64,000 nucleotides of DNA from Apostichopus japonicus. Lineage: Eukaryota; Echinodermata; Holothuroidea; Aspidochirotida; Stichopodidae. A program made the translations under genes and the position numbers. Numbering within the stretch: position 1 is the stretch's first letter; each line of letters starts with the position of its first letter. Location: assembly GCF_037975245.1 (NCBI RefSeq), contig NC_092570.1:1364501-1428500 (forward strand), written 5' to 3'. Positions 7,719 to 64,000 of the stretch are shown here, one piece after another. Below the pieces are notes generated by a model. It searched no databases. It worked only from the letters and a program-made list of their open reading frames with translations, and was not told where the DNA came from.

Positions 7719-8831
7719 TCATACATGATGTAGTTCTTGTTCTCTTCCTGTACAGCAGTTAAATGTACTTTTCAGAGCATTTCGATAACGAGCACCAAAT
7801 ATGTTGTAAATAACTGGATTAATACCAGAATTGAACAATGAAGGGAAACCTATTAGGAATAAATAAACTCCCCAAGCTAAACCATCGTCATCACGTTTTG
7901 CTATGACGGCGAGAATGATAGCGATATCCTGAGATAGCACTAAACATAAGAACACAGCAGAATTTACCAATACCATTATGGTCAGATTCCTTTGATTCCG
8001 TTCATGACATTTTTTCCGGATATTATCACAGTCACTGATATTCTCATTCTCTTTAAGTACTTTGATAATTTTAGTGTAGAGCATTACAACAATTAGTAAG
8101 GTAATTAAATCTAAGAAGATGACAATATAACTGGATGGTGGTACTTCAGATATTTTCCGAAAGTGAACTATCCCTTTATACAATGGTATAGAAAACAATA
8201 GGAACACAGGACAAAGCGTAACGAAAGCAACAGAAATTCCAATCGCAGTCAAGCAACATCGCTGCTTTAGATTTGAAACTGAACCTATGTGTTCCAACGG
8301 TTTACAAATAGCCTTATAACGTTCATACGCAATCAATATAACAAGGCATAAACTGATAAATTGCAGCGAATTCCAAAGTAATGATATGACTAGAACAAAC
8401 ACGTCAAAATAAGAATATTGATAACCACGCACGAATGGGATGAGTAGAGTAATCGCAGTTACGAGCAAGAGAAAAGACGTAAATAAATCAACACCTGACA
8501 ATGCTACTAGGTAAATACAGATGTCAGATTTTCGTAAGATGGGATGTCTTTTAACTGTCGTCAAAAATAAAGCATTTGATGTCAATGCAAGAAGAGATAC
8601 AATCAATAAAGCTATGCACGGCCAGATATCGACACAAAATAAGGCTATGCACGGCCAGATACCGACACAAACTTGCTCATTATATCTATGATAGCACATC
8701 AACCTATGGTTTGGATCATTCGTAAACTGAAGTCCTACGTCATAGTCCGAGTCATAACGGAGGTTATGAGATGAAGTGTTTCCATAACTTGTACTTGATG
8801 ATGCATTTGAAGAAATATTGAAGTAATTCAT
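7719..8831 (-). CDS. Class A-like orphan GPCR 1 (intronless, 370 aa)
   Basis: Single-exon gene; the start ATG at 8831 gives MNYFNISSNASSS, with N-glycosylation sequons in the ectodomain. The seven-helix pattern is clear: TM1 with SN at 1.50, TM2 with ALSGVDLFTS (D2.50), TM3 ending YERYKAICKPL (an ERY variant of DRY), TM5 with LYTKIIKV and TM7 NSGINPVIYN (NPxxY). The Cys normally found at 3.25 in TM3 and the CWxP motif of TM6 are absent. The tail ends ELHHV. The TM1 entry has an 11-residue in-frame duplication containing IWPCIAL twice. It is closely related to the genes at 29040 and 35852. The ligand is unknown. Lineage-specific intronless receptors are common in echinoderms; a chemosensory or peptide role is only a guess. 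Confidence 0.9.
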   Translation of the reverse strand: MNYFNISSNASSSTSYGNTSSHNLRYDSDYDVGLQFTNDPNHRLMCYHRYNEQVCVGIWPCIALFCVDIWPCIALLIVSLLALTSNALFLTTVKRHPILRKSDICIYLVALSGVDLFTSFLLLVTAITLLIPFVRGYQYSYFDVFVLVISLLWNSLQFISLCLVILIAYERYKAICKPLEHIGSVSNLKQRCCLTAIGISVAFVTLCPVFLLFSIPLYKGIVHFRKISEVPPSSYIVIFLDLITLLIVVMLYTKIIKVLKENENISDCDNIRKKCHERNQRNLTIMVLVNSAVFLCLVLSQDIAIILAVIAKRDDDGLAWGVYLFLIGFPSLFNSGINPVIYNIFGARYRNALKSTFNCCTGREQELHHV

Positions 8832-10546
8832 CTTCGATAATATTAATTCGAATGTCCTCGTTCTACGTAAGACTGCTACACAAGGCTGATGCTTATGTGA
8901 CACAAAATATCTGGAAGTTATAAGCAGTAGCCTATAGAAGCTGTGGAAGTGAAATGGCGTCCAAAAGTAATGCTATAATGGCCGTTAGACAACGTATGCT
9001 TAGTTTTTGCTGATCAATGGAATATTAATAACACTTATTGGATAAGACCTCTACAAAGATCGTTCGTATCAGAATGTGATAGCTGAAAGGATGAACGTTC
9101 TGTGATATGGGATACCCGTACATCGGCGATCAACAAGTTTTGATACGTAGAGCTCATCACATATTTCAGTCAACGTTTAAACTTGAAGAACATCTAAGGT
9201 AGTCACCACAAATGCACGAATCGTTGAATGGTCTACAGTAAGAATGCAGTGAAGCGAATAAAAGAACTGTAGCCTATATTCAACACATTGTGTATTTATA
9301 TGATGTATCAGGAAGACTGACAAACGCCTTATTCTAGAACTATAGCCTCTGTGTCCTGATGCAGTCTCTTGTAGACTAGATAAATGAATTTGTTCAACAT
9401 CGGGTTGACTGTCTTTCTTCGTTTGTTATTTGTACTGAATAGACTCCAAGGTACAAGAGCGCATTGGAAATATATAGATGTTTGACTTATATTGAATAAA
9501 TCTGCTTATATTATACCTTTCAATGTATAGGCACAGAAAATATTAACAACAAACCATCGTTGAAAACCATGAGACTGTTTTGACAGAGGTTATTCTTAAA
9601 ACGTAAATCCAGATTGCCTACACCTGAGAATAATAAGAGAGGTCAAGCTAATTATAAAGTTAGTATAGTCCGAGTACTGTTAGACTGAACATTATATATA
9701 GCTTTTACTTGAGAAATATCCAGAAAGGTGTTGGTCGGAGTAAAACGTCAACTACTTTTGATAGCTCTATATCTGATATTGGTGATCATACTTCCTAAAA
9801 CTAAGCATCATTTTTTTAGACATGATGTTCCTTTCAATTAACAACATAGTGGCAGTTGTTATCAATGTCTTCATGATCATGTACAGATATAGTTTCTTAG
9901 TTCCTTGTTCAGAAGTGCCAGCATCCTGTTCTTAATTTACGTGTATTGATTCATAGTGCATTATTCTTGTTTGTTTTAAACGAAATATTCATCCCGTGGG
10001 TGTTTGTAAACCTTAAGTCGGTAAGTTGAATCTGAGTGGAATTAGATCTGACGCTCAGTTGGCTGAAGTGCTCTAGCAGTTAGAGTCAGAATCGCTGAGT
10101 TGTAATAGATATGCAATTTATTATTACTGGTTTAATTTGCCATTGCATCTATCTATCGCAGTGTATGTAAATGCAGACAGTTGGAGTGAGCATTCTTTAA
10201 GCATTGTATCTTCCTAATACTTCATCCTGCAAACTTTAAGTACCCAAATGAAGCCCAGAGAACGATCTTACCAATGATGTATACAAGTTTTTATGGGGGG
10301 GGGGGGGGTTATATTGAACATCTTTCCAAACAATTCAGTTGAAACTTTGTTTTAAAAAAAATGGAAATTTGACCTTTGACCTATTGTGTAGGAATGGGGG
10401 GGGGGGCTTAATGTGAGAAACTTAAAAGGCAATTTCAAAGAAGTAGCTGTACATGACATTTGGTGTGGAGCCTTGGGACCATCATCATTATGTTTTCAGT
10501 GTCATTTTGGGTTTGCTAATTAAATATAGATTATTGGCGGGTCCAA
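8832..10546. other. Non-coding, no recognised feature
   Basis: Only stop-rich sequence and short homopolymer G runs (10297-10308 and 10397-10406). The part next to 8831 must hold the 5' UTR and promoter of GPCR1; no motif was placed with confidence. Confidence 0.5.
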
Positions 10547-21275: not shown

Positions 21276-21540
21276 AACCAACTTACTTTAACACATAAAT
21301 AAGTATACATAAAAAAGTTAGACAGGCAGATGAGGAGACCCGTGTATGTGTCTTCTCATCTGTTTTCTCATGATTCCAGCGGTAGTGATAAGAATATCGA
21401 TCAGCCCTGCCAGAGCGCCAAACTTAATTCTTTGTGAGGGCGAGCTGTTTGTTGAGGTATTATGATCGAAGGCCCGCAACGTGAATTACGTAACTTACCA
21501 AAATGAGCAACCACGGGGATATTTGCTGATACGCTCTACG
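20466..21540. other. Non-coding, no recognised feature
   Basis: A short (AAT)n tract lies at 21247-21269. CTGATCAGGGAGGT...ACCTCCCTGATCA at about 21036-21074 forms an inverted repeat. Otherwise stop-rich sequence. Confidence 0.5.
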
Positions 21541-22647
<1,107 letters not shown>

Positions 22648-22689
22648 ATAACTGAACAAAGTATGAGAAATACATTGTGAGGTACATAT

Positions 22690-24399: not shown

Positions 24400-25430
24400 G
24401 GATTCAAAATGAGATTTTTCTACTCACACAAGCTAACAATTCTAGAAATAAAGTACTGATAATCATCTTGATCTTTACTGTGTGTGCTTGTACTGATTCT
24501 GCAGGAAACAGCAGTATCATCTGCATACTTAATAACATTGCAGTTGGAACCTGAGCGTTTCTCATCCGTGTAAATGGTGAAAAGTAGAGCCGATAGAGGA
24601 CCCCCTTGAGGATCGCCAATTTTAATATCCGATTTAGAAGAAAATCCCTTCTGTAATTTCACTTGCCTGGTTCTTCAATAAAGCTACATACATCTTGAAT
24701 TAGGCGATTAGGCAATACCGTATTAAATGCGCTTGAAAAATCTAAGAAAAGGACTTTTGACAATGTTGTGTCTTTCTGATTTAGCCCCGAAACGATGTCA
24801 TGTACAAGAGTAAGTATATGGCATCAATGCATGAAACTCCCTTTTTGTAGGCAAATTGTTTTTTGTCTCCATGTTCGATGATAGACTGCATATTGTATGG
24901 GAGTAGAATTTTCTGTATGCAGTTAAATCCAATACTTGAAATATCTATTGGTCTATAGTCTTTAACTGAAATGGGATTACCTGTTTTAGGAACAGGCGAC
25001 GTTTTAGCATGTTTCCACGAAGATGGAATCAGACTTTCATTAATACTTCTATTAAAAAAAGTTGCAAAAATACTACACAGTTCGTCAGAACAATATTTGA
25101 AAACCCACCATGAGATGTTGTCGAAACCTGATGCAATTCCACTTTTAACCAGGCTGAAATATTTGTTAACTTCATTCTTTACGAAAACTACAGGTATATC
25201 ATTAGTTCTTTCTGGTAAGATCAAATTAACATCCTTAATAACAGCACTGTTAAAACGTCCAAAATGTTCATTTAATTCAACTCCAAGTTCACTTTTTTGT
25301 TTGGGCTTTGATATCAACTTGAGAGTTTTTGGTATATCATGGTATATCATCAACCTACCAAGTACAAGTTCCCTGAAGATTATATATTCTTTAATAACCA
25401 ACATCCCATACATACACACCGACCGTCACC
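24400..25430 (-). pseudogene. Broken non-LTR retrotransposon reverse transcriptase
   Basis: Minus-strand pieces in several frames read in RT order: ASGFDNISWWVFKYCSDELC, VPKTGNPISVKDYRPI, FLDFSSAFNTV (first catalytic Asp), GDPQGGPLSALLF and KYADDTAV (YADD box). Frame changes near 24770-24790 and 24660 break the ORF. The order and motifs fit Jockey/CR1-like LINEs. No endonuclease was recognised upstream (25430-26000). Confidence 0.85.
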
Positions 25431-27796: not shown

Positions 27797-29039
27797 CTTT
27801 CATCCGGCAAGTGTTTCTTGAGAATGACGACGTTACACAAATTCTTCTCGCTTCTACGAACGGCTTTATCATATGGACACAGGGACTAATTCGAGTTTGT
27901 TTATATATTCGGACAAATCAGGCAATATATCGTGCTTGATGCGTTTAACGTTACATGCGAGTACATTTCGTTAATTCACATAACCAAAGTCTTGTTTTGG
28001 ACCATGTAAACGATTCATGCATTTCATGACTGTCTCTAATGTTCTTCATTATGAACGCTAACTGATATACGTGATATGCTTGTTTGATCACCAATGTGAT
28101 GAGAAGTGTGCGTTGTGACGATTCTCTCTTCCAGTTAACAGGCTACCTCATAGTACAGCGAAAGACATTTGCAGATAGGACTTAGACATTTCAAGAAACG
28201 CGGCAAAAGTAGGACAATGTCATGATCAATTTTATTTAATGGAAACACTTCGCCGATTAGTGAAAAAAAACTTACTCCCCTGTCGTACAGCCTTACCCTA
28301 TGGTTTTGCACTCAGTTACATGGCCGACTTCATATTTGCTTGATGGAAGTCTACTACAAATGAGAACCATAATCCATCCTCATTCACGAGGATACATGAA
28401 TAAATGTGACAATCATGTTGAACATGTTTCCGAATTCGACATCTGCAGCATTATCTTCCGAGTGAGTAAGACGCTTTGGCAGACAGAAGACATTTTATGA
28501 AGGATTTTCATAGCCTATATACTCAATGTTTAATTTCACGGGAACAACTGTTGACTGAAATGCGATCTTCGATGAACTTCATTCGTCTTCAAGCTTTAAG
28601 TAAATAAAGGTGCATATTCCAATTATTGTGCCTAATTGATTAATGTGCCTAATTGATATGAGTACATAGTACAATTAGGACTTCATCATTTAATAATACT
28701 ATTTCAATTATAAGTTCATATTAACCGTCTATACTGCTTGACAGGGATATTACTCTTTTTTTCTAAATCACATCTTTGGTATCCTCAGGTTTTGATCCTG
28801 TTATCTTCTCTAGGATTTGTGTCACATAGCATCATTGGTATTAAGTATTATATATTGGTATCCAGTGGAACTAAAACAAGAAAATTGACAAAGAAGAAAA
28901 ATAGCGATAATTACTGTACGTAACAATCATTGTCACAACGTGGTTTACCACATTCAAATGACTTAAAAAGTTATAAGAAACAAATCGGATTATTATAGTA
29001 AGAACTACAAGAATTGACTAGAATATTTATTTATCTAAA
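27797..29039 (+). repeat. Upstream part of the GPCR2/GPCR3 segmental duplication (GPCR2 copy)
   Basis: From AGCTTTCATCCGGCAAGTGT onward this matches 34633-35851 with few changes (for example GGACTTAGACATTTCAAGAA at about 28178 and 35021). It ends at the GPCR2 start. It should contain the shared promoter. The ORF at 28300-28500 is also present, altered, upstream of GPCR3 and is not protein-like. Confidence 0.85.
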
Positions 29040-30029
29040 ATGGATTACTTAAACATTTCTTTGAACACATTTTCATATCGTTGGTGGGATTATAATTATG
29101 ATCAAAATTTAACTGTATGGCAAAGCGTTTTATTTTTTAGTTTAAGTCTTTTTGCAATAACAACAAATGTATTGTTTTTGATTACAGTTAAGAGACATCC
29201 AATGTTACGAAAATCTGCCATGAGCATTTACCTGGTAGCATTGTCAGTTGTTGATTTGATTACATCAGTACTCTTTCTCTTATTTTCGATTATAAGCCTA
29301 CAATTAGGCATACAACACATTCTAGACCCGACACGTGTTCATTTTTTATGGATCCTCACTGGTGGTGTGTCTGCTATGGCGCTGTCACTATGTTGGAGTT
29401 CTTTGCAATATATAAGTCTATGCCTTGTTATATTAATTGCGTATGAACGTTATAAGGCTATTTGTAAACCGTTGGAACACATAGGTTCAGTTACAAATCT
29501 AAAGCGGCGATGTTGTTTGACTGCGATTGGAATTTCTGTTGCTCTTGTTGGTCTTTCTTTAGTTTTCGGTTTTGCCTCTTTGTATTTACTTGCCGGGATA
29601 AGTAGCTTCATAGAGAAAGTACCACCATCCAGTTATATTTTCATCTCCTCAGATTTAATTACCTTATTATTTATGGTAATACTCTACACTAAAATCATCA
29701 AAGTATTTAATGAGAATCTAAACATCAGTGACTGGGATAAAATCCGGAAACGAAATCATCAACTACAGCGGAATCTGACCATAATGGTACTGGTAAATTC
29801 TGCTGTGTTCATATTTTTAGTGCTATGTCAGGATATCGCTATCTTTCTCGCAATCATAGTTAAACGCGATGACGGTGGTTTATCTTGGAGAAATTACTTA
29901 CTCCTAATATATTTCCCTACATTGCTAAATTCTGGTATTAATCCAATTATTTACAACATTTTTGGTTCTCGTTATCGAAGTGCTCTGAAAAGTACATTGA
30001 ATTGTTGCACAGGAAGAGACAAAAACTAG
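29040..30029 (+). CDS. Class A-like orphan GPCR 2 (intronless, 329 aa, shortened tail)
   Basis: ATG 29040 gives MDYLNISLN with N-glycosylation sites. Helix landmarks: AITTNVLFLITVKRHPMLRK (TM1/ICL1), ALSVVDLITS (TM2), AYERYKAICKPLEH (end of TM3), LYTKIIKVFNEN (end of TM5), CQDIAIF (TM6), NSGINPIIYNIFGSRYR (TM7/helix 8). No Cys at 3.25. Compared with GPCR3, a frame change just after TGRDKN brings an early stop. The sequence for the GPCR3 tail (EHGDIELSHVV) is still present but out of frame at 30030-30064. TM cores are near-identical to GPCR3. Confidence 0.9.
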   Translation: MDYLNISLNTFSYRWWDYNYDQNLTVWQSVLFFSLSLFAITTNVLFLITVKRHPMLRKSAMSIYLVALSVVDLITSVLFLLFSIISLQLGIQHILDPTRVHFLWILTGGVSAMALSLCWSSLQYISLCLVILIAYERYKAICKPLEHIGSVTNLKRRCCLTAIGISVALVGLSLVFGFASLYLLAGISSFIEKVPPSSYIFISSDLITLLFMVILYTKIIKVFNENLNISDWDKIRKRNHQLQRNLTIMVLVNSAVFIFLVLCQDIAIFLAIIVKRDDGGLSWRNYLLLIYFPTLLNSGINPIIYNIFGSRYRSALKSTLNCCTGRDKN

Positions 30030-34632: not shown

Positions 34633-35851
34633 AGCTTTCATCCGGCAAGTGTTTCTTGGGTATGAGGAAGTTGCACAAATTTGTTTCTCTTCTACGAACG
34701 GATTTATCATATGGACACAGGGAGTAATTCGAGTTTGTCTATACTGTATATTCGGACACATCAGGCAATATATCGTGCTGATTACGTTTAACGTTACATG
34801 CGAGTACATTTCGTTAATTCACATAACCACAGTCTTGTTTTGGACCATGTAAACGATTCATGCATTTCATGACTGTCTCTAATGTTCTTCATTATGAACG
34901 CTAACTGATATACGTGATATGCTTGTTTGATCACCAATGTGATGAGAAGTGTGCGTTGTGACGATTCTCTCTTCCAGTTAACAGGCTATACCTCATAGTA
35001 TAGCGAAAGACATTTGCAGATAGGACTTAGACATTTCAAGAAACGCGGCAAGAGTAGGACAATGTCATGATCAATTTTATTTAATGGAAACACTTCGCCG
35101 ATTAGTGAAAAAAAAAATACTCCCCTGTCGCGTACAGCCTTACCCTATGGTTTTGCACTCAGCTACATGGCCTACTTCATATTTGCTTGATGGAAGTCTA
35201 CTGCAAATCAGAACCATAATCCATTCTCATTTACGAGGATACATGAATAAATGTGACAATCATGTTGAGCATGTTTCCAAATTCGACATCTGCAGCATTA
35301 TCTTCCGAGTGAGTATGTCGCTTTGGCAGACAAGACATTTTATGAAGGATGTGCATAGCCTTTACTCAATGCTTCATTTCACGGGAACAACTGTTGACTG
35401 AAATGCGATCTTCGATGAACTTCATTTGTCTTCAAGCTTTAAGTAAATAAAGGTGCATATTCGAATTAATGTGCGTAATTTATGGTACATAGTACAATTA
35501 GGACTTCATCATTTAATAATACTATTTCAATTATAAGTTCATATTAACCGTCTACTGCTAGACAGGGATATTACTCTTTTTTTCTAAATAATATCTTTGA
35601 TATCCTCAGCTTTTGATCCTGTTATCTTGTCAAGGATTTATGTCACATAGCATCATTGGTATTAAGGATTATTTATTGGTATTCAGTGGAACCAAAACAA
35701 GAAAATTGACAAAGAAGAAAAAATAGCGATAATTACGTAACAATCATTGTCACAACGTGGTTTACCACATTCAAATGACTTAAAAAGTTCAAATATACAA
35801 ATCAGATTTTTATAGTAAGAACTGGAAGAATTGACTTGAACATGAACTGAA
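34633..35851 (+). repeat. Upstream part of the GPCR2/GPCR3 segmental duplication (GPCR3 copy)
   Basis: Partner of 27797-29039; the offset drifts only slightly through indels. The duplication puts the same presumed promoter in front of both receptors. Confidence 0.85.
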
Positions 35852-36925
35852 ATGGATTCTTTCACCTCATCACATCCTTTTGATACAGTATACCTATCTA
35901 ACTGTAGTTGTGAGTCCTTTAACGACGCAATATACGATTATGAGTATGACAGATACAGTTTTTGGTGTAGTTCAGATGAATTTACTCTAACGATAGGCCT
36001 ATGGCCATTCTTTATTTCATTGATTTTAAATCTTTTGGCAATAACAACAAATGTATTGTTTTTGATTACAGTTAAGAGACATCCAATGTTACGAAAATCT
36101 GCCATGAGCATTTACCTAGTAGCATTGTCAGTTGTTGATTTGATTACATCATTTCTCATTCTCGTATGTTCGATTATACAACTCATTTTCAAACTTAGTG
36201 ATCCAATTGTGACGTCACGGTCTGCTGTACTGCTGTCACTATGTTGGAGTTCTTTGCAATATATAAGTCTATGCCTTGTTATATTAATTGCGTATGAACG
36301 TTATAAGGCTATTTGTAAACCATTGGAACACATAGGTTCAGTTACAAATCTAAAGCGGCGATGTTGTTTGACTGCGATTGGAATTTTTGTTGCTTTTGGT
36401 GTTCTTTTTGTTGTTTTCCTATTTTCCTCTATGGAATTACTTGGCGGGGTAAGAAGCTTGGGGAAAATATGCGAAATACCACCATCCAGTTATATTTTCA
36501 TCTCCTCAGATTTAATTACCTTATTAATTGTTGTAATACTCTACACTAAAATCATCAAAGTATTTAATGAGAATCAAAACATCAGTGACTGGGATAATAT
36601 CCGTAAACGTAATCATGAACTACAGCGGAATCTGACCATAATGGTATTGGTAAATTCTGCTGTGTTCATATTTTTAGTGCTATGTCAGGATATCGCTATA
36701 TTTCTCGCCATCACAGTAAAACGCGATGACGGTGGTTTATCTTGGGAAGATTACTTACTCCTAATATTTTTCCCTTCATTGCTAAATTCTGGTATTAATC
36801 CAGTTATTTACAACATTTTTGGTTCTCGTTATCGAAGTGCTCTGAAAAGTACCGTGTTGAATTGTTGCACAGGAAGAGACCAAAATCTAGAACATGGAGA
36901 CATAGAACTTAGTCATGTTGTCTAA
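35852..36925 (+). CDS. Class A-like orphan GPCR 3 (intronless, 357 aa)
   Basis: ATG 35852 gives MDSFTSSHPFDTVYLSNCS, a longer ectodomain with a sequon and several Cys. TM1 is entered by IGLWPFFISLILNLLAITTN, then TM2 ALSVVDLITS, TM3 ending AYERYKAICKPLEH, TM5 LYTKIIKVFNEN, TM6 CQDIAIF and TM7 NSGINPVIYNIFGSRYR. No Cys at 3.25, although one occurs in ECL2 (KICEIPPSS). The intact tail ends ELSHVV. Cytoplasmic-facing parts match GPCR2 almost exactly; the ectodomain, TM2-ECL1-TM3 entry and TM4-ECL2-TM5 entry differ. The ligand is unknown. Confidence 0.92.
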   Translation: MDSFTSSHPFDTVYLSNCSCESFNDAIYDYEYDRYSFWCSSDEFTLTIGLWPFFISLILNLLAITTNVLFLITVKRHPMLRKSAMSIYLVALSVVDLITSFLILVCSIIQLIFKLSDPIVTSRSAVLLSLCWSSLQYISLCLVILIAYERYKAICKPLEHIGSVTNLKRRCCLTAIGIFVAFGVLFVVFLFSSMELLGGVRSLGKICEIPPSSYIFISSDLITLLIVVILYTKIIKVFNENQNISDWDNIRKRNHELQRNLTIMVLVNSAVFIFLVLCQDIAIFLAITVKRDDGGLSWEDYLLLIFFPSLLNSGINPVIYNIFGSRYRSALKSTVLNCCTGRDQNLEHGDIELSHVV

Positions 36926-41619: not shown

Positions 41620-43020
41620 TTATCTGCGTTTGCACCAAGAAGCAAAATGCTTACAATTATAGGTGAGAATATTGTAACGGTTCTCACCCAATTTGGACCT
41701 AGCTCTCTGAAGTACCTCTTCCGGCGGTAACATTGGGGCACCACCGTAGGACACGCGGAGGATGGGAGGGGACACTTCAACCCATTCCTCCACCACACCC
41801 CTGCTGTACATGTTACGAATTAATTTCAACTTGTTGGTCTTTGTATTCACTGTAACAACTATAGCATGACATCTGGGGTGACTGAGGTGACCAGGCAGGA
41901 CCACCTGATCCCCCTCATTGATCTCACTCAGTTGCACCTCCTCATCACCTCTTTTGACTGACATGTGAATCACCTGTCCAAACACACGACCCAGTTGAGA
42001 CCCCACTGCTTTCTGGGGTGCCCTTATGACCTCTCCTTTTATGACGCTCCCCATAAAAAAGCTCATTTTCACTTCCAAAGTCGGAACTTCAAAACATCCT
42101 ATCCCTCCCCCTGGTGTACCACTGGCTACTGCTCCACTGATCTTGAAACCTTTCTCCACCAATATATCAATGAACCTCTTAATGAAAGCATCCAAATAGC
42201 TCCCACGGTCTGTACACCCCTGTCGTTCTGCGATGGCGTCTTCCAATTCGAAAGCGACCGCCGAGCCGTCCATGGCAAATAAAATCCCACTCTTGATCTT
42301 GGTCTTGGCGTAACCTTGCTCGACCACTCGGATACAATCCTCTTCTCGACCAGTGACCCAGGATGAACCCAATAATGTCTTGAGGACCTCGCTGACTTCA
42401 GTTCCCACTAACCACATGGCTCTCCATCCGTGTCCAGGACCGCATTTACAGTAACCGGCGAGCACTTTACTTTTGCAAGTTAATATGTTGTACACTTTTG
42501 TTTCTACCTGGCAAGATGCCAAAGCTCTAGCTACAACCAAAGCAGCAGGATCGCAAAGAGAACCATAATCCACAATTTGTAGATTCGTAACCATGGATAA
42601 GTCAATGAGCATGCGTCCAATCGTGATCTCACAGAACGCCAATTTTTGCAGCGATATCACAGAGGCAAGTTTTCTGTCATCATCAACAGATTCCACAATT
42701 GCATCAAAAGTGAGTTTCTCTTTACCTTGTACCTCTACCCATCTGAGATGGTCCCCTTGTTGTACCCTTCGTGACTGGCATACGATCCTTGTTGTTGGTG
42801 ACGCTTTCTTATACTGACGAAAATAGAATCTCTTTGTTTCTATCGTAATGAAAATCTCCTCCGTCATCAGAGTCTCGAAGAACTTTTCATCCAGCCATTC
42901 TTTGCCGCAAGTCTCACAAAAAGCTCCACACACTTCTTCTTTGCTATCACCATAAATCCAAAACTGTTTAGAGTCTCGGTTACCACACAGACATCCTCTT
43001 TGTATTTCTAGGAGTTCCAT
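41620..43020 (-). CDS. Tandem-LRAT (NlpC/P60-like) protein with CxC...CxxC knuckle, 466 aa
   Basis: The coding sequence lies in one exon; ATG 43020 gives MELLEIQRG. An acceptor (poly-T then AG at 43041-43040) sits 19 bp upstream, so a 5' UTR intron is likely. Residues 10-38 hold CLCG...CETCGKEW, a possible zinc knuckle. A first LRAT-like module (residues 88-195) has GDHL, but the expected His is Asp106 (TFDAIV); a Cys remains at 182 before YCKCG. The second module (about 363-466) is intact: GDQVVL, HPRCHAIV (His385) and YNILTYNCKHF (Cys456). LRAT/PLAAT enzymes are thiol acyltransferases or phospholipases using His and Cys in these boxes. It is paralogous to exon 6 of the gene at 48045-55011. 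Its substrate is not predictable. Confidence 0.85.
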   Translation of the reverse strand: MELLEIQRGCLCGNRDSKQFWIYGDSKEEVCGAFCETCGKEWLDEKFFETLMTEEIFITIETKRFYFRQYKKASPTTRIVCQSRRVQQGDHLRWVEVQGKEKLTFDAIVESVDDDRKLASVISLQKLAFCEITIGRMLIDLSMVTNLQIVDYGSLCDPAALVVARALASCQVETKVYNILTCKSKVLAGYCKCGPGHGWRAMWLVGTEVSEVLKTLLGSSWVTGREEDCIRVVEQGYAKTKIKSGILFAMDGSAVAFELEDAIAERQGCTDRGSYLDAFIKRFIDILVEKGFKISGAVASGTPGGGIGCFEVPTLEVKMSFFMGSVIKGEVIRAPQKAVGSQLGRVFGQVIHMSVKRGDEEVQLSEINEGDQVVLPGHLSHPRCHAIVVTVNTKTNKLKLIRNMYSRGVVEEWVEVSPPILRVSYGGAPMLPPEEVLQRARSKLGENRYNILTYNCKHFASWCKRR

Positions 43021-47129: not shown

Positions 47130-47572
47130 ACATACATACATACTTTTATAGAGCGCAAACTCCATATGATCAATGCGCTAAAATTTTCAAGAAAAATAAT
47201 ACCAACAAAATGTACAATTTATTAAACAGGTAAGTCTTAAGTTGTTTTTTCAACAGTGCAACAGATTTAGAATTACGTATAAGGAAGAGAGTTCCACAAC
47301 ACAGGTTCTGCACTGGAAAAGGCGCCCTCACCCACCTGTTTCTTAGAAGATGATATAAGAAGCAGGGTCTCATCCATTGCAGACCTGGTAACAGGACCAG
47401 ATAATGGTGCGGTTTTCCGCTGAAGCTTGTTAGAGAGATAAGCCGGGGCAGCATGATTCATACATTTATACACATAAAGACGTAATTTAAAATGGATTCT
47501 TTCACTGATAGGTAACCAATGCAGGGCATGTAGAAGAGGTTTTGGGCTCTCTAACCTAGCTGCCAAGAAAAT
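47130..47572 (-). pseudogene. Non-LTR retrotransposon 3' end (RT C-terminus and tail)
   Basis: Minus-strand reading gives LHALHWLPISERIHFKLRLY, then YKCMNHAAPAYLSNKLQRK, GAFSSAEPVLWNSLP and, after a frame change, SVALLKKQLKTYLFNK. This is the standard C-terminal block of CR1/L2/Jockey-type LINE proteins. It ends in GCGCTCTATAAAAGTATG(TATG)n at 47170-47130, a typical LINE 3' microsatellite tail. 5'-truncated and dead. Confidence 0.85.
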
Positions 47573-48044
47573 TAATTTCTCAAGAAAAAAGAGATCAGAG
47601 TATTTACCTAAAAAGTTCGCTTATATGCAAATATATAAAGTTTCATATTTCATTTAAATATTAAACCAAATCAATGACAGTTTTAGCAATTTAAAAAAAC
47701 TGGCTGCATAATGTGTGCATTTGCTACAATCTAATGATACAGTCTATGACTCTATTGATAATGGAGACTGAACTGAAGTCAACCCAAATGAAACAAAGAA
47801 CAATAAAATTAGGCCTAAACATCAAACTTGAAGGTTCGGGCCAAACCCCTGCCCCCCCCAAAAAAAACAATATTACAAATTCAATTGGCAAAGTTGCTAC
47901 GTAAATCCCAATAGTCGGATGGGTATCCACTTGTATGTAATTACTATTACATGACTTGATGTAAGAGGTGCTTTAAGCCTTACAGCTGAAACTACTAGGG
48001 TCGAAATAACTCCCCTACTCTCCAGACAAACATCAGAAATTATT

Positions 48045-49426
48045 TCACTGGTTCTGCTCTTTGCACCATTGAACAAAATGTTTACAATTATTTGTCACTA
48101 TATTGTAGTCATTTTTCCCGCCAATTTTTGATCTTGCGGTCTGTATCAAGAAATCCGGGTCGATGGCTATGTCGGCTCCCACAAGTAAAACCTGGGGCGG
48201 TGCTTTTATCCACTCTTCGACCACACCCTTCTCGTATGTACTGCGGATTAACCTCAACTGCTTTGCATCTGAATCAACGGATATGACTATGGCATGACAT
48301 CTTGGATGTAAAAGGGATCCGGTTAACACCACGTGATCTCCGCTCTGGAGTTCTTTCAGCTTCACCGTTTTGTCTTCCCGCTTGACAAACTTCTGAATCA
48401 AGCTACCGAACGACGATCCAGCTGACGTATTGTTGAACTTCCCCATGGCAACATGAAATTTGTGGCCGTCTTTGAAACACTGAACAGAGAAAGTAACTTG
48501 AACCTCCGAATCTTTAAAGATCTTTATTACGTATTCCCTCAGGCTGTTGTTTTCTGTTTTCGACACATCAAATTCTCCGTTTTCTTTAAGACTGACCAGA
48601 AGCTTTTCACAGAAATCGTCGTCAACACGATTTTTGGATAGATCAAAACCGTTCCTCCCATTGCTTAGATCAAGAATAATGCTGGTCTTGTTTATTTCTA
48701 CTAGGGCACCCACTGCTTTCACTTCACGTAATTCGCTGACAGAGCTTTCTGTATTTGGGCTTTTACAGACAGTCCACGATTCATGATTTACCAATCGGCT
48801 AAGGGTGTTTGTAAACGGCACGCCGACTAACCACCAGTTTCGGAAATATTCATCGGAACCGCACTTACAGTATCTGGCAAGGCACTGAAATTCAAATAAG
48901 TTTGCTACCTGCGGACAACCGTCGCACCAAGCAAACGCTCTAGCTTTCACCAATTCTGTGGGATCACAACTGGCGTACGTCACAACCTTTGCATTCTTTA
49001 GCTCAGAAACGTCGAGCTTAGCACGGCTAATCGTAACTTCACTTGGACCAGTTCGGCGGAACGAAACGACCGACAGGGTGGACTCAGAGTGAATGGTTTC
49101 AACGATGGCCTCATGGTGACCCGACAGAGTTTCCTCACAGTCAGAAAGAACTAGGTGATCCCCTTCTTTTAACGTTTCTAATGTGAACTGTTCTGTATTT
49201 CTTTCTCTGGGTGGGTGGTCAAACTGGGCATTGTGGAAGTAGAATATATTCTCTTCAAACAGAAGGCTATTTCCATCAACCTTTGAAACATCTTCTACGT
49301 ATCGCTCAAGTAACCATTCCTTGCCACATTTCTCGCACAAAACCCCCAACAGCTCGCCACCGTTTACATATCTTTTGTATCTGTTGGCGTTGCCACAAAC
49401 ACATTTTCTGAACTTTTCTTTGCTAT
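48045..49426 (-). CDS. Exon 6 of the fusion: CxC...CxxC knuckle plus two LRAT-like modules
   Basis: Residues 419-877 of the predicted protein. Opening KCVCGN...CEKCGKEWL gives Cys426, Cys428, Cys448 and Cys451. Module 1 keeps GDHLVL and HHEAIV (His521/522) and a Cys599 in EFQCLARYCKCG, but the NCxHF box is degraded. Module 2 is intact: GDHVVL, HPRCHAIVISV (His795), VVEEW, and IVTNNCKHFVQWCKE (Cys865). The frame has no ATG until residue 745, so the exon cannot start its own protein in full. It is paralogous to the single exon at 41620-43020, with shared order of all blocks. PLAAT/LRAT proteins transfer acyl chains from phospholipids through the Cys. Confidence 0.9.
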
Positions 49427-52400
49427 CTGTAGAGGTAATAAAAAAGGTAAGTCACTTCAGATATTTATTTTTTAAAGTTTTATAAAGCACAGAGGGCATT
49501 TGGCACGATTAAGCACATTAATGTGATTAACACTCAAGGATGCATTCAAAGATGCACTTGCCATTTACACCGTAGAATATACACAATCTGTATTCTACGG
49601 GACGGGTGGTCCTTATCGGCTATCAAAATACATTACAATTAAAAATTCAGCTGAGAGTCATCCTTTTTTAAGAATAATTCAATTTTTACCTTTCTCTTCC
49701 TTCTCAGCGTAATCGATAGTCGTCATCAAATCTTCCTCCAAGGTTACAAAATCGTTTTTATCGAGGCGGTGTTCTTTCATTGCTTTTTTCAAGTCTGTGA
49801 TTGGTTGATCCACTCCCTGGAAAACAAAGACGTCCGAAGAACTTGAAGAGCAGAATTCATAATTTAAATGCTTAACCTCCAAGGAGATAAAAATTTTTCC
49901 TCTATTTTGGATTTTCTGTTTGTTTATAGATAAAGCAAATTAATAGAAGGTCAGACGTTTCGGTCCTAGCAAGATCTATTCTCAGCGGCTTAATGACCAA
50001 CATGTACACTGCAGTAGAAAATGTTGTAGCAAAGAGGAGGGACATTTGCTAGTAGCCTGGGTGACAAACAATAATATGTGGAAAGGGGAGAGGCGGGGGG
50101 GGGGGGGTTAGCTGTGACTCAATATTCCCTGTATTCCTTCATAATCCTACTCACCGTGATTTATTTCCCTTTTTGTACAGAGTCAATAAACATATTGTTG
50201 AGGTGGTAATGGTATGATAAGGGGTTTGTAATAACTCCCGGGGTCTATTGATCCAATTTCATAAGCTAACAAAGAAACTGACAAACAAGGGAAAGAAAAA
50301 CAAAACTAGTATAGGTTACCTATGAGAGGTTAAACCTGCATTCCTTACCTCAGTGCTAAGCTTAAAAGTGCGCCAGTGAATCCCGATCGACTTCCTTGCT
50401 TGGAGGTGTTGGTGAATTTTCACGGCTTCCTCAGGGTTTATGTGTTGGCATTTCATCATTTGCCTGTGACACAAAGAATGCATGAAAAAGTCACAAAAAG
50501 TCTTTCCAAGAAAGAAAAAAAGGGTGAGGGGGGATTCTAAAACCAACAAAAAGCAAAGAACGGTTATTTCAAAGAAACGTTGCTATTTGGTCACAATTTC
50601 TGATAAAATTTGTCAAACCAATTAAAGCAAGATGGCAAATAAAACTAAAGAACGAAGAAAATCTAACCCGCCTTCTTGTATTGACTAACCCTAACCAGAA
50701 ATTGATATCTTTCCAACCTGAAACTCACTGATTGCCACAACCGGTCCATAAAATCCTTCAGTAAGGTGAGAAAACTAGGCATTTTAACATGATGATGCAA
50801 GTTTAATAGACTTCTAGAACATTACAAAACAGCCACAATCAACTTGTCCTGGCTACCGAACACCACTGAGTGTACAGAATCTGTTAAAGTCTGGTCAATA
50901 AAATTGAAGGATAGTTGTACTATCTTGCAATACTAGATGGCTATATTTTAACTACTATACCATATTACGTCATATAAACTTATTCAGGCAGAAAGTTAAC
51001 AAATCAAAAAGATATTGTAGGAGGCCCACATCCTTTTGTATCTGAAACTTTTGGTGGTTTCAGTCATTTTAATAGGACCTGGGATGTGGCTAATGATAAA
51101 CTTTAATCATGATAGCCCAGCTTTTTATGGGATCATACAAAGTAATTAAGAGGTTAGCCCTCACATACAGAATGCATTTTGTTTACTTCCCCATTTGTGA
51201 ATCTCAAAGAAATCTTATTCACTCAAGCAGATTAAAACTGAAAGCAGCTGAGTCACTCAGGGAAATTATTACATACATCACTACATCATCAGGAGATCAT
51301 TACACACATCATTACATCATTACATCGCTGTATCATCAATAGATCATTACACACATCATTATATAATTACATCATCACATCACTACATCATCAGGAGATC
51401 ATTACACATTACCCAAGGTGATCATTACATACCCTAGTCTGGGGCAATCGAATGTGTGAAGAAAATACTGATGTGAGCTCATTCATGATGTACAAGTTAC
51501 ACTACATACAGTGAGATAATTCCTGTTGTAAACACCCAGCCAGTGTTTACAGAATGTGAAGTCATTACCCTCATGGTTTGATGAAGAGTAACATCAACCA
51601 AGGAAAGAATGATCATGTATTAAACACCTAAGGTTTGACCGTTTCACTTGGGTCTTTTCTAAGGAACCGTTGCTAGGGAAGTACACGGAATGTGTGGCTG
51701 TGTAATGGTAGTTATATCGTTGGCTGTATAAAGGTAGTGTTTAATAAACCATCACCTTGGTTCATATGCTCCGATTGGAAGTAACGCCACATCTACTCTT
51801 CCAAACCTCTCACAGATATCGGTAAAGATCTCCTCTTGGTACCCTGTGTCACCCGCAAAGAAGACGGTGAACCTCTCGCTCTTTACGATCCACGATCCCC
51901 AGAGGGAGGTGTACCAATCATGAGGACCTCTCGCACTCCAGTGCTTGGCTGGGGTGAAGTATAACATCATGCCACACGCCGTCGATTGCCCCCACCACGT
52001 GCATTCCTTGACAACATCCTCTTTACAACCCCATTCCACAAATTTCTTCTTGAGACCCATTGGGACAAACCACTGTATGGCTGATGCTGACTTGAGAGCT
52101 GCCAGTTTCTTCACACTTGCTTTGTCCAAATGGTCGTAATGATTGTGACTTATTAACACAATGTCAATGTCAATTTTGAGTTTGGTCAAAGCTTCGGCGT
52201 CGAGAGCCGGCTTCCGGTATCGCCGATACCCTAAGACATTAGTCATACCGACTGTATCGCTGAACACCGGGTCTGTTAGGATATTCTTTCCTTCCATTTG
52301 TATCAGTAGAGAAGCATGGCCTATCCACAGAACCTGAACTTTATCTCGTGGAGGACTTTGTAATTGGCTGATTTGGTCATCGTTGAGATCTTCTACTACC

Positions 52401-55011
52401 TTCCGCTTCAGAGAAGATGGAGTCACTGCTGGTTCTCCAGCCTCTGGGTTACCATTATCACTCGGAGGCTGCATTTCCATACTCTCATCTCTAGGAAGTC
52501 CCGATTCCACAGTATCATCTGAACTTTGACCCTTTTAACAATGGAAAACACAAAAGATACATTTTATTAAAAGAGTATACATTTTTATAGATAAACTATA
52601 ATCTCAGAATCTGTGTGTTAAACTACACCGGTTAGTACTGGGAAATACTACATAGCGTTCATATTAAATGTTCATTGAACTGGTTTCCTGACTGAATCTG
52701 ATGGTACTGTAAGTGGAGGGAGAGGAGGATTTGGAGGAGGAGGAGGAGGAGGAGGAGGAGGAGGAGGTGGTGGAGGAGGAGGGGGAGGAGGTGGAGGAGG
52801 AGGAGGAGAAGGTGGAGGAGGAGGAAAGTGGACTAGTTATGATATGCAACCGGCTACATTGCTACATGTTATTTTGGCATGTCGATAATTACATCTAAAC
52901 TCTGCTTGGTAATCATGAACTGGAAGTAAGGAATATTGGATAATACCAACAAGACAATTTACTGTTCATCCATAAAACAAAAGAGTGTTTTAGAAATGAG
53001 TGTATCATACTTAACTTTTTTCAACAGTTACTTTAGAAGATGTTTCTGTTACTTTAAAACCTTTGCACTGTGTAAGTATCCTGTATGTAGCACTAGAGCC
53101 ATTTCAACTTATCAACATCTTCATGTATCCATGACAACACATACATCGCATTTGATTACTGCACCCACTAATAACCTCATGTCCCACCGTGATGCATGTA
53201 GTGTATTAACATAGTTCTAATTTGCATAATACCTCCATGTCACCAGTACTTTATGTTACTTTGACTGTGCATATAATACATCAGTACACCTCCTAAGTTC
53301 CTAACAGACCACACGTGTATTTGTTCTCTCTTGTGCTTATAGTTGTGTTAGTATAGCAAAGCCCCGGTGAAGACAAGACAATGCACTTCTCTGAAAGTGT
53401 CATACATTCCCATGGAAATGGAAATCAATGCAGTACATCATGACCTTGAGCTTATATGTATTAACCCACAGAGCATGCAATGTAGTATATTTAAACAAAC
53501 ATCATGCACAAAGAAACGACTGATGTTGGTAATCTGACCTAGTTTTGAATGAGGTGTAACAAAAGTGTTAAACACCACCATCGATCCCAGAAAATACAGA
53601 CACAGCTTTCAATCATCAGTAAATAGACACTAGTGTACAGTCAGTACATGCAGCTACGGTCAATACCAACAACACAGTGTACATAGCAGTGATGGACATC
53701 TCAGGTCCAGATAAAAGATAACAAGGTTTCACGTTTCATTACTGTCTGCATTTTGTAGCGACAAGAAAAATTTCACTTGCAAGCAATAGAGAGTTAAGTT
53801 TTTGCAGAGAGCGGCACGCAGTTTGGGGCGAGTCTTCAATGCCTTTAAGGATTTGATTAACAATTTCTATCAATGAATGATCAAAATCACTCAACTGTAT
53901 TCTAATTTTAATATGTGTAGTTCCTCAGAAAGGTAATGATCTCAAAATGTTTTTTGTTCTGTGCCTACGCAACCTACAATTGGGCAGAATTTGACCACAA
54001 AATGTCTGCCTTGTCAATTTCTTTTCATACCCCTAAAATGACAGATTCGTCGATAAGCTAACTCAGTGTAGTATTAAATATATGTACATCCATTGGCTTT
54101 GGATGCTGTTTGCTATGCTCTGAGCCTCTAAGCTCAGACAGGTCAGGTCTCAGACAGCAGTGGTATTATATTGAGGTAATTTTGGTTATTTTAGGGAGTA
54201 AGAATTCCAAATGCTGGGGGGAGGATGTTGAAAGCTTATAAAAACACAATTTGATCAACATAAACTTGAAAAGGATTAAAACTCATCAAATATGTAACTC
54301 TGCTTGACTGCCAAAAGTTTAGGTTACCTGCTTTATCATTAGTAAAGTTTGAAGGTGCATCAATTACGAAGGTGCATCAATTATGAAGCCTTTACTATAT
54401 CTAAATTATACTTACCTTATAAAGGTATGCACTCAACATTGCCGAAACATTTTGGCCATTTATTTTAGATGGATCAAAAATTTTAAATTGCCATCTAGCA
54501 GGATTGTGGTAACTTTTTCCCATGAAAGTATCCTGGATCTGCGGCACAATCGAGGACTCCTCATGTCTGTTTCCATCTGGTGACGCCATGGTCAAAAGGT
54601 GAAAAACTGAGGCTTGCTGTAAATGGAATGTTAAGATGTTTTCTGGTTAGTATACTCATACAGTTTCAAATGTAACTCATTATGACGCAATGAACTTGAA
54701 ATTTTTTCACGCATCCACTCTTTCTCTACTCATGAGTCATGGTTATTACTGTATCTGTGATGTCATAGTGCCACTAGGACGTCAGGTACCTGAAACCAAT
54801 ACTTCTTTCTCTCTGTTTCTCTCTAATTCCCATTGTAAAGGTTAGATTCAGGGCTATTGTAATAAATAATTATTGAAGGAAAATAAAATAAATGATGCTT
54901 AAAATAAAGCTTTTCCGAGGGGGGTGGGGGTGTTAAGGATAACAGAACCTATCTTCTAAAAAAGGGCAATTTTCTTACCTTGTTTTTGGAGAGGGTTGGG
55001 GCAGGGACCAT
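48045..55011 (-). CDS. NAPEPLD: Predicted NAPE-PLD/LRAT fusion protein (six coding exons, 877 aa)
   Basis: Exons: 55011-54979, 54616-54416, 52531-51756, 50463-50349, 49816-49690 and 49426-48045. All junctions are GT/AG and all phases fit. ATG 55011 has a strong context (GGCGCCATGG). Residues 1-140 are poorly conserved. Residues 140-415 are a metallo-beta-lactamase NAPE-PLD: WIGHASLLIQMEG, SHNHYDHLD (His207, His209, Asp211, His212), FTPAKHW (His275), FFAGDTGY (Asp306), QHINPEEAV (His344) and IGIHW (His366). These are the family's zinc ligands plus the conserved QH. NAPE-PLD releases N-acylethanolamines from NAPE at membranes. Exon 5 ends AAG-GTAAAA in phase 1; exon 6 opens in the same phase into the LRAT half. 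The exon 5-6 join is the key inference. The first acceptor of exon 3 (TTAAAAG) is the weakest site. Introns contain repeats (R2 copy 2, GGA array, a hammerhead-like fragment). Confidence 0.82.
49949..50000 (-). repeat. Fragment related to the palindrome arm at 4554-4623
   Basis: On the minus strand it reads CTGAGAATAGATCTTGCTAG, then GACCGAAACGTC. The hammerhead-like core is altered here. It lies in the intron between exons 4 and 5 of the fusion gene. Confidence 0.6.
51260..51420. repeat. CATCATTACA-rich simple repeat
   Basis: GATCATTACACACATCATTA and close variants repeat irregularly within intron 3 of the fusion gene. The rest of that intron (50464-51755) shows no other feature. Confidence 0.65.
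52713..52830. repeat. (GGA)n polypurine tract
   Basis: GGA/GGT trinucleotides in intron 2 of the fusion gene. The poly-Glu and poly-Ser ORFs here are artefacts. Confidence 0.95.
53515..53852 (+). repeat. Dispersed repeat R2, copy 2
   Basis: Same orientation and block order as 38276-38630, with indels. It sits in intron 2 of the fusion gene, antisense to it. Confidence 0.75.
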
Positions 55012-55571: not shown

Positions 55572-56617
55572 CAGGGGCGTAGCGGGGGTTTTTGTTGGAT
55601 TTTTTTGTGGATATTTTGATTTGCCGACGGATCTGGAAGTGGTGACTGAAATGGGGGAGGGGTCTAAGGGGAGGGGGTCCCCCTCCCCTTTGGAAAATTT
55701 TTAGTTTTGAAACGTCCTTAGATGCAGTCTGGTGCATACTTTAAGTCAAATTTGATTTGCCGACCGATTTGGAAGTGGTGACTGAAATGGGGGAGGGGTC
55801 TTAGGGGAGGGGGTCTACCCCTCCCCTTTGGAAAATTTTTAGTTTTGAAACGCCCTTAGATGCAATCTGGTGCATATTTTAAGTCAAATTTGATTTGCCG
55901 ACGGATCTGGAAGTGGTGACTGAAATGGGGGAGGGGTCTAAGGGGATTAGGTGTCCCCTACCCTTTTGGAAAATTTTTAGTTTTTGAAACGTCCTTAGAT
56001 GCAATCTGGTTCATATTTTAAGTCAAATTTGATTTGCCGACGGATCTGGAAGTGGTGACTGAAATGGGGGAGGGGTCTAAGGGTAGGGGGTCTACCCCTC
56101 CCCTTTGGAAAATTTTTAGTTTTGAAACGCCCTTAGATGCAATCTGGTGCATATTTTAAGTCAAATTTGATTTGCCGACGGATCTGGAAGTGGTGACTGA
56201 AATGGGGGAGGGGTCTAAGGGGATTAGGTGTCCCCTACCCTTTTGGAAAATTTTTAGTTTTTGAAACGTCCTTAGATGCAATCTGGTTCATATTTTAAGT
56301 CAAATTTGATTTGCCGACGGATCTGGAAGTGGTGACTGAAATGGGGGAGGGGTCTAAGGGTAGGGGGTCTACCCCTCCCCTTTGGAAAATTTTTAGTTTT
56401 GAAACGTCCTTAGATGCAATCTGGTGCATATTTTAAGTCAAATTTGGCACGGAAGAAGCTCCCGTTCTCCTTTTCTCTATTCAGCTTTCCTTCTTTCTTC
56501 CCCTTCCGCTCTCTTCACCTTTTCTCCTTTTGCCGACAGACCCAAAATTTGCCGACAGCGACCAAATTATTGGGGGGGGTGTGACACCCCCCACACCCCC
56601 CGCTCGCTACGCCCCTG
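55572..56617. mobile_element. Non-autonomous hAT-type element, 1046 bp, with perfect 8-bp target duplication
   Basis: Ends CAGGGGCGTAGCG and CGCTACGCCCCTG are inverted repeats. The flanks GATACACC at 55564-55571 and 56618-56625 are identical. An 8-bp target duplication with CA-starting ends points to the hAT superfamily. The body is mostly a tandem array of about 139-bp units; no transposase is encoded. Confidence 0.85.
55612..56450 (+). repeat. 139-bp tandem array with two-unit higher-order pattern inside the hAT element
   Basis: GATTTGCCGACGGATCTGGA-type starts recur near 55617, 55755, 55893, 56032, 56170 and 56309. Units 3 and 5 share GGGGATTAGGTGTCCCC and units 4 and 6 share GGGTAGGGGGTCTACCCC. 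The dimer has therefore been amplified as a block. Confidence 0.85.
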
Positions 56618-56625
56618 GATACACC

Positions 56626-59600
56626 CGCTTGTTGGCATGTACGGTTACCGCCCGAAAAAAAACCCAGTTGGCATAAAGGCTAACCTGGTGCATTGGTTTT
56701 GGTGTCCACAGACTTGGCGAGCAAATAAAAATGGTATTTAATATTTGTAGTTGGATCAAATTTGTGCTACTATCAAACAAATCTTGGTACAATTTACTCG
56801 GCAAAACACTATAGCCATTTAGCAAGTTTCCTCCCTAGAAGTCTTTTCCAAGTTCGCCCTGTTGACATTATCAAAGCTAATATGCTTGATGAATTCCATG
56901 TTTCACCCCACTTCATTCATGAATAATGTCTCTTTTTCAATTTGGAGAGTTTGTGTTTTTGTCCTGTGATTTGTGCCCAACTTTGTCCATCATAATCGTT
57001 ATGATTCTCGCACCGAGTATTGGAGAGAACTGGACGAAACGACAGGGGGTTGGGTCTTTTGGGAGGGGGGGGGGGAGGCAGTGAGCTATAGTCTCAGGAA
57101 GCATTGGATAAGTATACTGCATTAGCATTTGCATATTAGGTAGCATTATTAATTGCATATTAGGAAAACTTACAACTTTAAAAATTTGGTCATAGGACAC
57201 AATTGTTTCCCAGGGCCAGACTTGGCTCTCAACACACAAGTTAAACAGCCAAAAGAGGTGCTAATTAATCTTTCACTTCCTCCAGTCCTCTTTGCCTTTA
57301 CGTTAACCTCTTTTGACTGATTCTATTCCAACAATTAGAAAGGAAAAAGGATGATGACCTCAGAGGATAGTTTTCATTATTGTCAACAATTTATTAACAG
57401 AGATAAAAAAAAAAGAGTCAAATAACAATTTTACTAAATGCAGTAATTTTTACAAATATGCACCTTTAATTATATCAAGTATTCATTTCATCTTTTTCAG
57501 TTGAAAACTTCAAAACTGATCCCCACCAATGATCTCTTAGGATGCAAGTATCAACTTTGAAGAAAAGAGGTTTCCTTTGATGAGCATGTATGTGATCGAG
57601 GGAGGGTGGATGGGTGGAAAATGGAGAGTGTATAAAAAACCCTAAGTTCTGGTAACAACTTATATTAATTGTGAACACAACTGAGATGGTAAGACCAGAT
57701 ATTAAAACGTTGAACTAAATGACATCTAGTTATATTCTTGACTTGAGTCAGTTTGCCATCTCTATCAGGAATTGAGCTCCATTAACTTTTAACATCTTTC
57801 AAACAGATGGATCTATAATGTAACCACATTTCATACCATGTCCCCCCCTTGACAAACAGAGAGACCAAAACTATTCCCCAATTTTTTTAGATTCATCTTG
57901 TTCATATTTACTTACTCATAGTTTTTTATTCAATACAGCAAATGTGTGACTTGAGTCATACCTTTTCACAGTACTACTTGATGATGTCACTACTTGATGT
58001 CATATCTACAATTAGATATGTATTTGAAACAGTACACAGTAACATCGCCTCCACTTTTAGAAGTTGTATAACATCTCGCTGCTACTAGATCTGCGGCAGT
58101 ATTCAGTGGTAGATTTAGGATTCCTTGGAAGAGATGGCCCTGGCCGGACAAGTTTCAGTAGATGGACATTATACAAATAGCGGTGCATAGGAAAACATCA
58201 TTGACAATTAGGGCACGCCTGCAGGCATCCCAAACTAAGTACTTTGTTCTGAATAAAGATTTTGTTTGTCGTTGATTTAGAGGGAAGGTGTGGGTCCTTT
58301 CCTTGGATTCTATCATGGTACTGATAATTTGATACTATCTTTCTCTACATTTCTAAAAATGTGAAACATATCATGAGAAGTGAAAGGGTTCCAGCACCTT
58401 CAGAAATGACTGAACAACACATGAGGGTCTTATACCAGAGGTGAAATCCCCCCGCCCCCTCCCATCCTGTTTCTGTAAACACTTTCCCAGCCACCACTGG
58501 AGCATGCAAGACACAGATACACTAGCATCACAGGAACTAATGATTTCTACAGCAACCAGATATCCAAATGTTAAACTGCATGCATCAATATTGTTCAACT
58601 GCAAAAGAATCTTCAGGGACATGACTTTTGGGTTCAGGCTTTTGGTCTTACACAGAGAAAAGCTTCCTATTCAGTACCAGCCTGACAGATGACATACACA
58701 CCAAACAATGACAAAACGGTTTCCATCAATCCAATGAGATATTTTATTTACACATTTGAGCTCTATCATTGTGAGGCTGTGAACCCTCAACATCGCCCAC
58801 CTCTACATGCCATCCACCCACTCCCCTCTAAAACTAAAAAGTTTTTTTTCATTTCCTTAAAGCTAGGTTTGGTTGTGTTTGTAACACCAACCTTAGGTTC
58901 CACTCCATACCATTAAAGAAATATAAACTTGTTGTGATGAATTGGACAAAATCGTTTGTATCACCAGCTTCTTAACTCCGTTACCAGTAAATTCAGCTTG
59001 ACCAATCAAGCTTTCAATATCATCTGTATTTTGCTCTTTGTAAGTTTAACACTAAACCCTTTGCATTTGCTCCAGATCTTTGTAAACCAATGCAATCATA
59101 AGTAACACCGTATATGTACTGCTCTATTACTGATAAAAAGAAACAAAGTTATCCCATGTCTTCATTTGATTCCTTGCAGATTTTACAATCCGTAATACTA
59201 GGTAGGTAGTTTAAAAAACACAAAAACGTGAAAAATCGGTGACAAATACCACGGCTGGTGCAAAGTTATCTTGTCAACATTTCCGTAAACACCTTAAAAA
59301 GTTATGAAAACACGTCATTGGTTAAATCCATCACAGAACTGCATCATTGCATCAAAAATCATATGGAATACGACTTAAGTACTTTGAGTTTATAATGCTT
59401 GTGTTTTGTCCCATCACATAAAATAATGCTGATGACAGTACATTTTAATCAGATCCTTCATAAATGCTCTCAAAATGATAACACTTGACACTAGTATTGA
59501 TTTGAGCAGGTTTCCCTTTGAAACAATTCCCATCCCCACCCAACTCACCCCGAACCACCCCCACCCAGCCCTTCCACACTCTTGACCCCCTCCACATACA

Positions 59601-59960: not shown

Positions 59961-64000
<4,040 letters not shown>

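Follow-up and report, generated by a model that had tools for sequence, protein, structure and literature searches.

Does the minus strand of a 64,000-nucleotide stretch of the sea cucumber Apostichopus japonicus genome (C10:1364501-1428500, contig NC_092570.1; hereafter the window) encode a single polypeptide in which a NAPE-PLD phospholipase is followed by an LRAT-type sequence? NAPE-PLD is the enzyme that releases anandamide-type lipid signals. To our knowledge, the invertebrate enzymes that make its substrate, N-acyl-phosphatidylethanolamine (NAPE), and the coupling of NAPE synthesis to hydrolysis are poorly known. A first-pass annotation of the window had proposed that five NAPE-PLD exons are spliced to a downstream exon encoding an LRAT/PLAAT-type acyltransferase. 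Our data indicate that splicing of the NAPE-PLD exons to this exon, which carries two LRAT-fold domains, in one transcript is the best reading of the locus, with a probability of roughly 0.7. A NAPE-PLD–double-LRAT protein would be a new domain architecture built of known folds.

We found that the six exons of the gene (Table 1) join in frame without a stop codon to give 877 residues, or 857 residues from the alternative start at ATG 54589; exon 1 and the true start of the gene are uncertain. As the first-pass annotation had stated, exon 5 ends in phase 1 at AAAG/GTAAAA, three codons short of a stop (after G-K-N), and the LRAT exon lacks an early ATG, its first methionine being exon residue 327. 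The acceptor of the LRAT exon, CTTTTTTATTACCTCTACAG/AT, is in phase 1 and matches the phase of the exon-5 donor. The description of a 459-codon exon with an intact LRAT domain held in part. The phase-1 acceptor stands, with 460 codons if the one split by the intron is counted, but in place of one intact domain the exon encodes a CxC...CxxC knuckle and two LRAT-fold domains, neither with a canonical triad.

Table 1. Features of the NAPE-PLD–LRAT locus and its tandem LRAT paralogue (window coordinates; exon residues are numbered within the LRAT exon)
Feature	Position	Strand	Remarks
Putative exon 1	54979..55011	-	11 codons, starting at ATG 55011; perhaps unused or untranslated; skipped by P0001
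Exon 2	54416..54616	-	alternative start ATG 54589 (MASPDG...); 46/58 residues identical to P0001 from 54589
Exon 3, main NAPE-PLD metallo-beta-lactamase exon	51756..52531	-	HxHxDH motif; PF12706, 88.4 bits
Exon 4, NAPE-PLD	50349..50463	-	contains IHWRTF
Exon 5, last NAPE-PLD exon	49690..49816	-	phase-1 donor AAAG/GTAAAA; read-through gives GKN-stop, end 49679
AATAAA poly(A)-like hexamer	49464..49469	-	between GKN stop and LRAT acceptor; could terminate an unfused NAPE-PLD transcript
Exon 6, LRAT exon	48045..49426	-	phase-1 acceptor; 460 codons counting the intron-split one; first Met at exon residue 327
CxC...CxxC knuckle	49326..49403	-	exon residues 8-33; four Cys in 19/21 aligned rows, the other 2 gapped
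First LRAT-fold domain	48855..49175	-	about residues 84-190; degenerate active site
Second LRAT-fold domain	48054..48356	-	residues 357-457; PLAAT-like fold
His377 codon	48294..48296	-	first triad His position
Arg394 codon	48243..48245	-	second triad His position
Cys447 codon	48084..48086	-	Cys865 of the 877-residue model; NCKHF motif
Tandem LRAT-exon paralogue	41623..43020	-	own ATG (MELLEIQRG...); apparently stand-alone (P0118)

A protein search with the joined sequence, in which scoring covered the 7991 candidates with the most words in common, found 116 proteins; 12 were read as sequences and the others were judged by their coverage and Pfam columns. One of the 116, P0001 (A. japonicus BSL78_26807, 718 residues, from an older assembly), covers both halves; the runner-up, P0002 (LRAT only), covers 55% of the query. 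The junction of P0001, EEK/DSKEKF, is identical to that of the window. The two sequences agree at 379 of 397 residues in the NAPE-PLD half (333 of 339 after exon 2) and at 246 of 258 in the stretch of the LRAT half that can be compared. The frame of P0001 shifts relative to the window after LSNGR and the protein then ends, so that BSL78_26807 shares the fusion and the junction but has lost the PLAAT-like second LRAT domain, and its listed Pfam domains are all metallo-beta-lactamase. The NAPE-PLD–LRAT join is thus already present in a public gene model, with the LRAT domain hidden there by a frameshift. As a BSL78 model, P0001 presumably belongs to the 2017 A. japonicus annotation; the report on that annotation describes gene prediction by homology and ab initio methods together with RNA-seq, and transcript support for 92.73% of models, a figure for the annotation as a whole and not for P0001 specifically (PMC5638244). 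Exon 2 (54589-54416) is unusually variable, since 12 of its 58 residues differ between these same-species assemblies compared with 6 of 339 in exons 3-5.

The strength of the join was assessed by scoring donors with a donor-site matrix. The exon-5 donor scores 3.64 and those of the four other introns 3.29, 6.58, 6.98 and 8.54. Of the 2084 open frames of the window, 30 (1.4%) have, no more than 60 nucleotides before the stop, an in-phase donor whose score equals or exceeds that of exon 5. We also asked which donors lie downstream of an ATG in their own exon and would splice in phase to the LRAT acceptor, a test restricted to single-exon start regions. Between 49450 and 56500, exon 5 itself is the one qualifying donor at a cut-off of 3.64; two donors qualify at 2.5, the newcomer being 51756 (score 3.29, not in the NAPE-PLD frame), and three at 2.0. 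When the test is extended to the end of the window, three donors reach 3.64 and five reach 3.29, the additions all lying beyond 59.5 kb.

Several observations count against the fusion. The exon-5 donor is weak, the stop three codons past it yields a NAPE-PLD of normal length, and the AATAAA at 49469 lies upstream of the LRAT acceptor. The splice from 49690 to 49426 is a prediction from the genomic sequence and a gene model, and its use in RNA is inferred. P0001 is itself partly computed, with the exon-2 acceptor read through and a frameshift at the C-terminus. In addition, P0133 is an unfused NAPE-PLD relative of 420 residues (200 of 369 identical, HWRTF common to both) that aligns from exon 2 through exon 5 and has a tail of its own beyond that, and none of the 116 proteins that comes from outside A. 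japonicus is fused.

The normal-length NAPE-PLD end, the AATAAA hexamer and P0133 would also fit two genes, in which NAPE-PLD ends at GKN with polyadenylation from the AATAAA and the LRAT exon is joined to a start not yet recognised, for instance a leader of several exons or one exon lying past 56500. Donors of at least 3.64 in the required phase do lie there, at 59549 and 62781, and all seven full-length double-LRAT open reading frames (ORFs; 499-522 codons) among ten further LRAT regions of the genome have a methionine before the first domain. We nevertheless consider two genes unlikely, given the P0001 junction, the absence of any equally strong single start exon besides exon 5 between 49450 and 56500, and the absence of a stand-alone model of the window LRAT exon among the 19 proteins compared. 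Exon 5 could also be shared without the protein being shared, if an LRAT-only transcript began in intron 4 or exon 5, from the TATAAA at 49928 and the ATG at 49780 (MKEHRLDK...), and was spliced to the LRAT exon. Two exon-5 ATGs, at 49780 and 49726, are in phase with the same donor. Such a transcript seems very improbable to us: P0001 joins the NAPE-PLD exons, no relative among the proteins read has so short a leader, and TATAAA hexamers are common in AT-rich DNA.

P0002, an LRAT relative of 475 residues (185 of 430 identical), has FHFFSTDIFNKQC just ahead of its first Cys pair where the window has FFITSTDSKEKFRKC. This likeness suggests that P0002 translates an ACAG acceptor and its pyrimidine tract in that same phase; judging from the protein alone, its LRAT exon may likewise need an upstream exon. 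P0002 and P0133 fit alternative 3' processing, a lineage-specific fusion or two genes alike. An unfused copy of the window NAPE-PLD was not found among the best 120 of 7556 proteins, where the top match was P0133 at 46%; since P0001 (718 residues) falls outside the lengths covered by that search, a short A. japonicus product clustered with P0001 could stay hidden, and the absence of a stand-alone copy is weak evidence. The proposal of one polypeptide therefore draws support from the P0001 junction, the lack of an equally good nearby start exon and the apparent P0002 acceptor, and is weakened by the related unfused P0133. The same domain order, which had been suggested as a check in relatives, was found in P0001 of the same species and in no protein of another species among the 116. 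Full-text searches of one open-access collection returned no title on a NAPE-PLD–LRAT fusion among the matches listed.

Invertebrate double-LRAT proteins (Holothuria leucospilota HOLleu_22767, Pecten LOC117331585 and others) share with the window the Cys knuckle, the two LRAT-fold domains, the HPRCHAIV and NCKxF motifs and, in the second domain, an Arg where the second His would stand. They differ in having no NAPE-PLD, and HOLleu_22767 and LOC117331585 begin at their own methionine. Three double-LRAT proteins, P0121, P0122 and P0125, have kept both His and the Cys of the first domain, unlike the window protein.

Copies of the two halves elsewhere in the genome (671,581,487 bases in 35 contigs) suggest how the join may have arisen. 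The LRAT exon has 28 genome matches at E <= 0.001, itself counted. The tandem paralogue in the window has its ATG nine codons ahead of the first Cys; its first LRAT domain is without triad residues and its second has Cys-His-Arg. At the position of that ATG the fused copy reads ACA, within its acceptor. The seven full-length ORFs described above lie on C5, C2 and C7, and the remaining regions among the ten hold broken, partial or single-domain ORFs. One locus (L003) has a methionine as the very first residue of the exon, where its near-twin (L004) has threonine. The LRAT exon of the fusion was probably once a neighbouring gene with its own start, which lost that start and was captured as a 3' exon of NAPE-PLD. 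The genome holds four NAPE-PLD loci including that of the window, two of the others being on C20 and one on C7. A tblastn search with five LRAT queries found no LRAT exon near these three (9.9 kb around each C20 locus; about 20 kb either side of the C7 locus). At C7:19520636-19602110, about 21 kb separates a NAPE-PLD gene from a cluster of same-strand LRAT matches; the LRAT genes are upstream and unfused. NAPE-PLD and LRAT genes are thus neighbours twice in this genome.

We found that the NAPE-PLD half aligns to human NAPE-PLD (PDB 4qn9) over query residues 123-382 (E 8.5e-61) and also matches Pfam Lactamase_B_2 (PF12706). The alignment bears out the assignment as a NAPE-PLD-type metallo-beta-lactamase with its zinc ligands, as the metal-site motifs HxHxDH, TPxxHW, GDTG and IHW, whose residues we take to be the zinc-binding ones, are kept. 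The two proteins share the metallo-beta-lactamase fold, HxHxDH and the other metal-site residues over about 400 residues, while the window protein has HWRTF for HWGTF, a divergent N-terminus and a predicted 460-residue C-terminal extension. As a putative NAPE-PLD, the window protein may hydrolyse NAPE to N-acylethanolamine.

The LRAT half departs further from its known relatives. Pfam LRAT (PF04970) matches exon residues 420-456 with 30.6 bits against a cut-off of 24.3. With the predicted structure of the whole exon, none of 585 Foldseek matches reached E <= 0.001, and the best rows were NusG-type; the PLAAT match came from a second look after the whole-exon structure and from a profile search, in which PLAAT4 chains matched at E 0.00046 and 0.00061. 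The exon has the LRAT/NlpC-P60-like fold of the PLAAT/HRASLS catalytic domain. By a published definition, PLAAT/HRASLS enzymes have a Cys-His-His triad, or Cys-His-Asn in PLAAT1, and a C-terminal hydrophobic region (PMC11989323). The first LRAT-fold domain is without the canonical His-His pair, with Ser at the second-His place, and probably also without the catalytic Cys. In the second, the site consists of Cys447, His377 and Arg394, and is neither Cys-His-His nor Cys-His-Asn. Compared with PLAAT3 and PLAAT4, the window thus has Arg for the second His, and two LRAT-fold domains with a Cys knuckle. The hydrophobic region that follows the catalytic Cys helix in those enzymes is absent, the protein ending NCKHFVQWCKEQNQ-stop. 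Of the proposed LRAT/PLAAT acyltransferase, then, the fold, the Cys and the first His stand, and the second His, an intact first domain and the C-terminal hydrophobic region do not.

These departures raise the possibility that the fusion is real and its LRAT half catalytically inactive, with a binding or regulatory role. Changing any triad residue of PLAAT3 to Ala or Ser is reported to abolish activity (PMC11989323), and here the first domain is degenerate and the second has Arg in place of its second His. The site is nevertheless conserved: across 21 aligned sequences His377, Asn446 and Cys447 are invariant, and position 394 is Arg in 19, with His in P0123 and Lys in P0131, a pattern that fits a maintained Cys-His-Arg site. 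PLAAT1 is reported to have Asn at the second-His place (PMC11989323). We regard an inactive LRAT half as a serious contender, somewhat short of even odds; it concerns function and is compatible with the fusion.

If the fused transcript is made as we propose, splicing from donor 49690 to acceptor 49426 would give a protein of about 857 residues with, in order, an intact NAPE-PLD, the Cys knuckle, the degenerate LRAT-fold domain and the second LRAT-fold domain with its Cys-His-Arg site. If intron 5 were retained, or the AATAAA within it used, an unfused NAPE-PLD with the ending GKN would be made as well. The LRAT half might act on lipids beside NAPE-PLD, either as an enzyme working through an acyl thioester or by binding membranes or substrate. 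A NAPE synthase and a NAPE hydrolase may possibly be combined in one chain, the phosphatidylethanolamine N-acyltransferase activity being hypothetical. The full bifunctional scheme, in which the second LRAT domain makes N-acyl-phosphatidylethanolamine or another acyl-phosphatidylethanolamine intermediate, the fused NAPE-PLD releases N-acylethanolamine and alternative 3' processing supplies unfused NAPE-PLD, we consider doubtful. Were it true, an endocannabinoid-type signal would be made and released within a single chain. The join of NAPE-PLD to an LRAT fold would in itself be a 'Rosetta stone' link between NAPE synthesis and hydrolysis and a test case that is simple to express. It would further provide an LRAT module in which Arg replaces the second triad His, and an example of a tandem gene turned into the 3' exon of its neighbour.

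Other features of the window were noted alongside. Just upstream of the NAPE-PLD gene, 55615-56446 holds six 138-base tandem units (alternatively three of 277 bases). Fragments that by eye resemble the reverse transcriptase of retrotransposons without long terminal repeats lie at 47273-47620 (-), between the two LRAT exons, and at 24781-25425 (-). Three related single-exon ORFs resembling rhodopsin-type G protein-coupled receptors, at 7719-8972 (-), 29022-30029 (+) and 35846-36925 (+), show by eye AYERYKAICKP and NP[VI]IYNIF. An RS-rich ORF at 59961-60521 (-) and a DGVPLDG-repeat ORF at 62689-62994 (-) are reminiscent of the splicing factor U2SURP. At 21530-22651 (+), a TATC-type microsatellite extends over more than 1 kb with all three plus-strand frames open.

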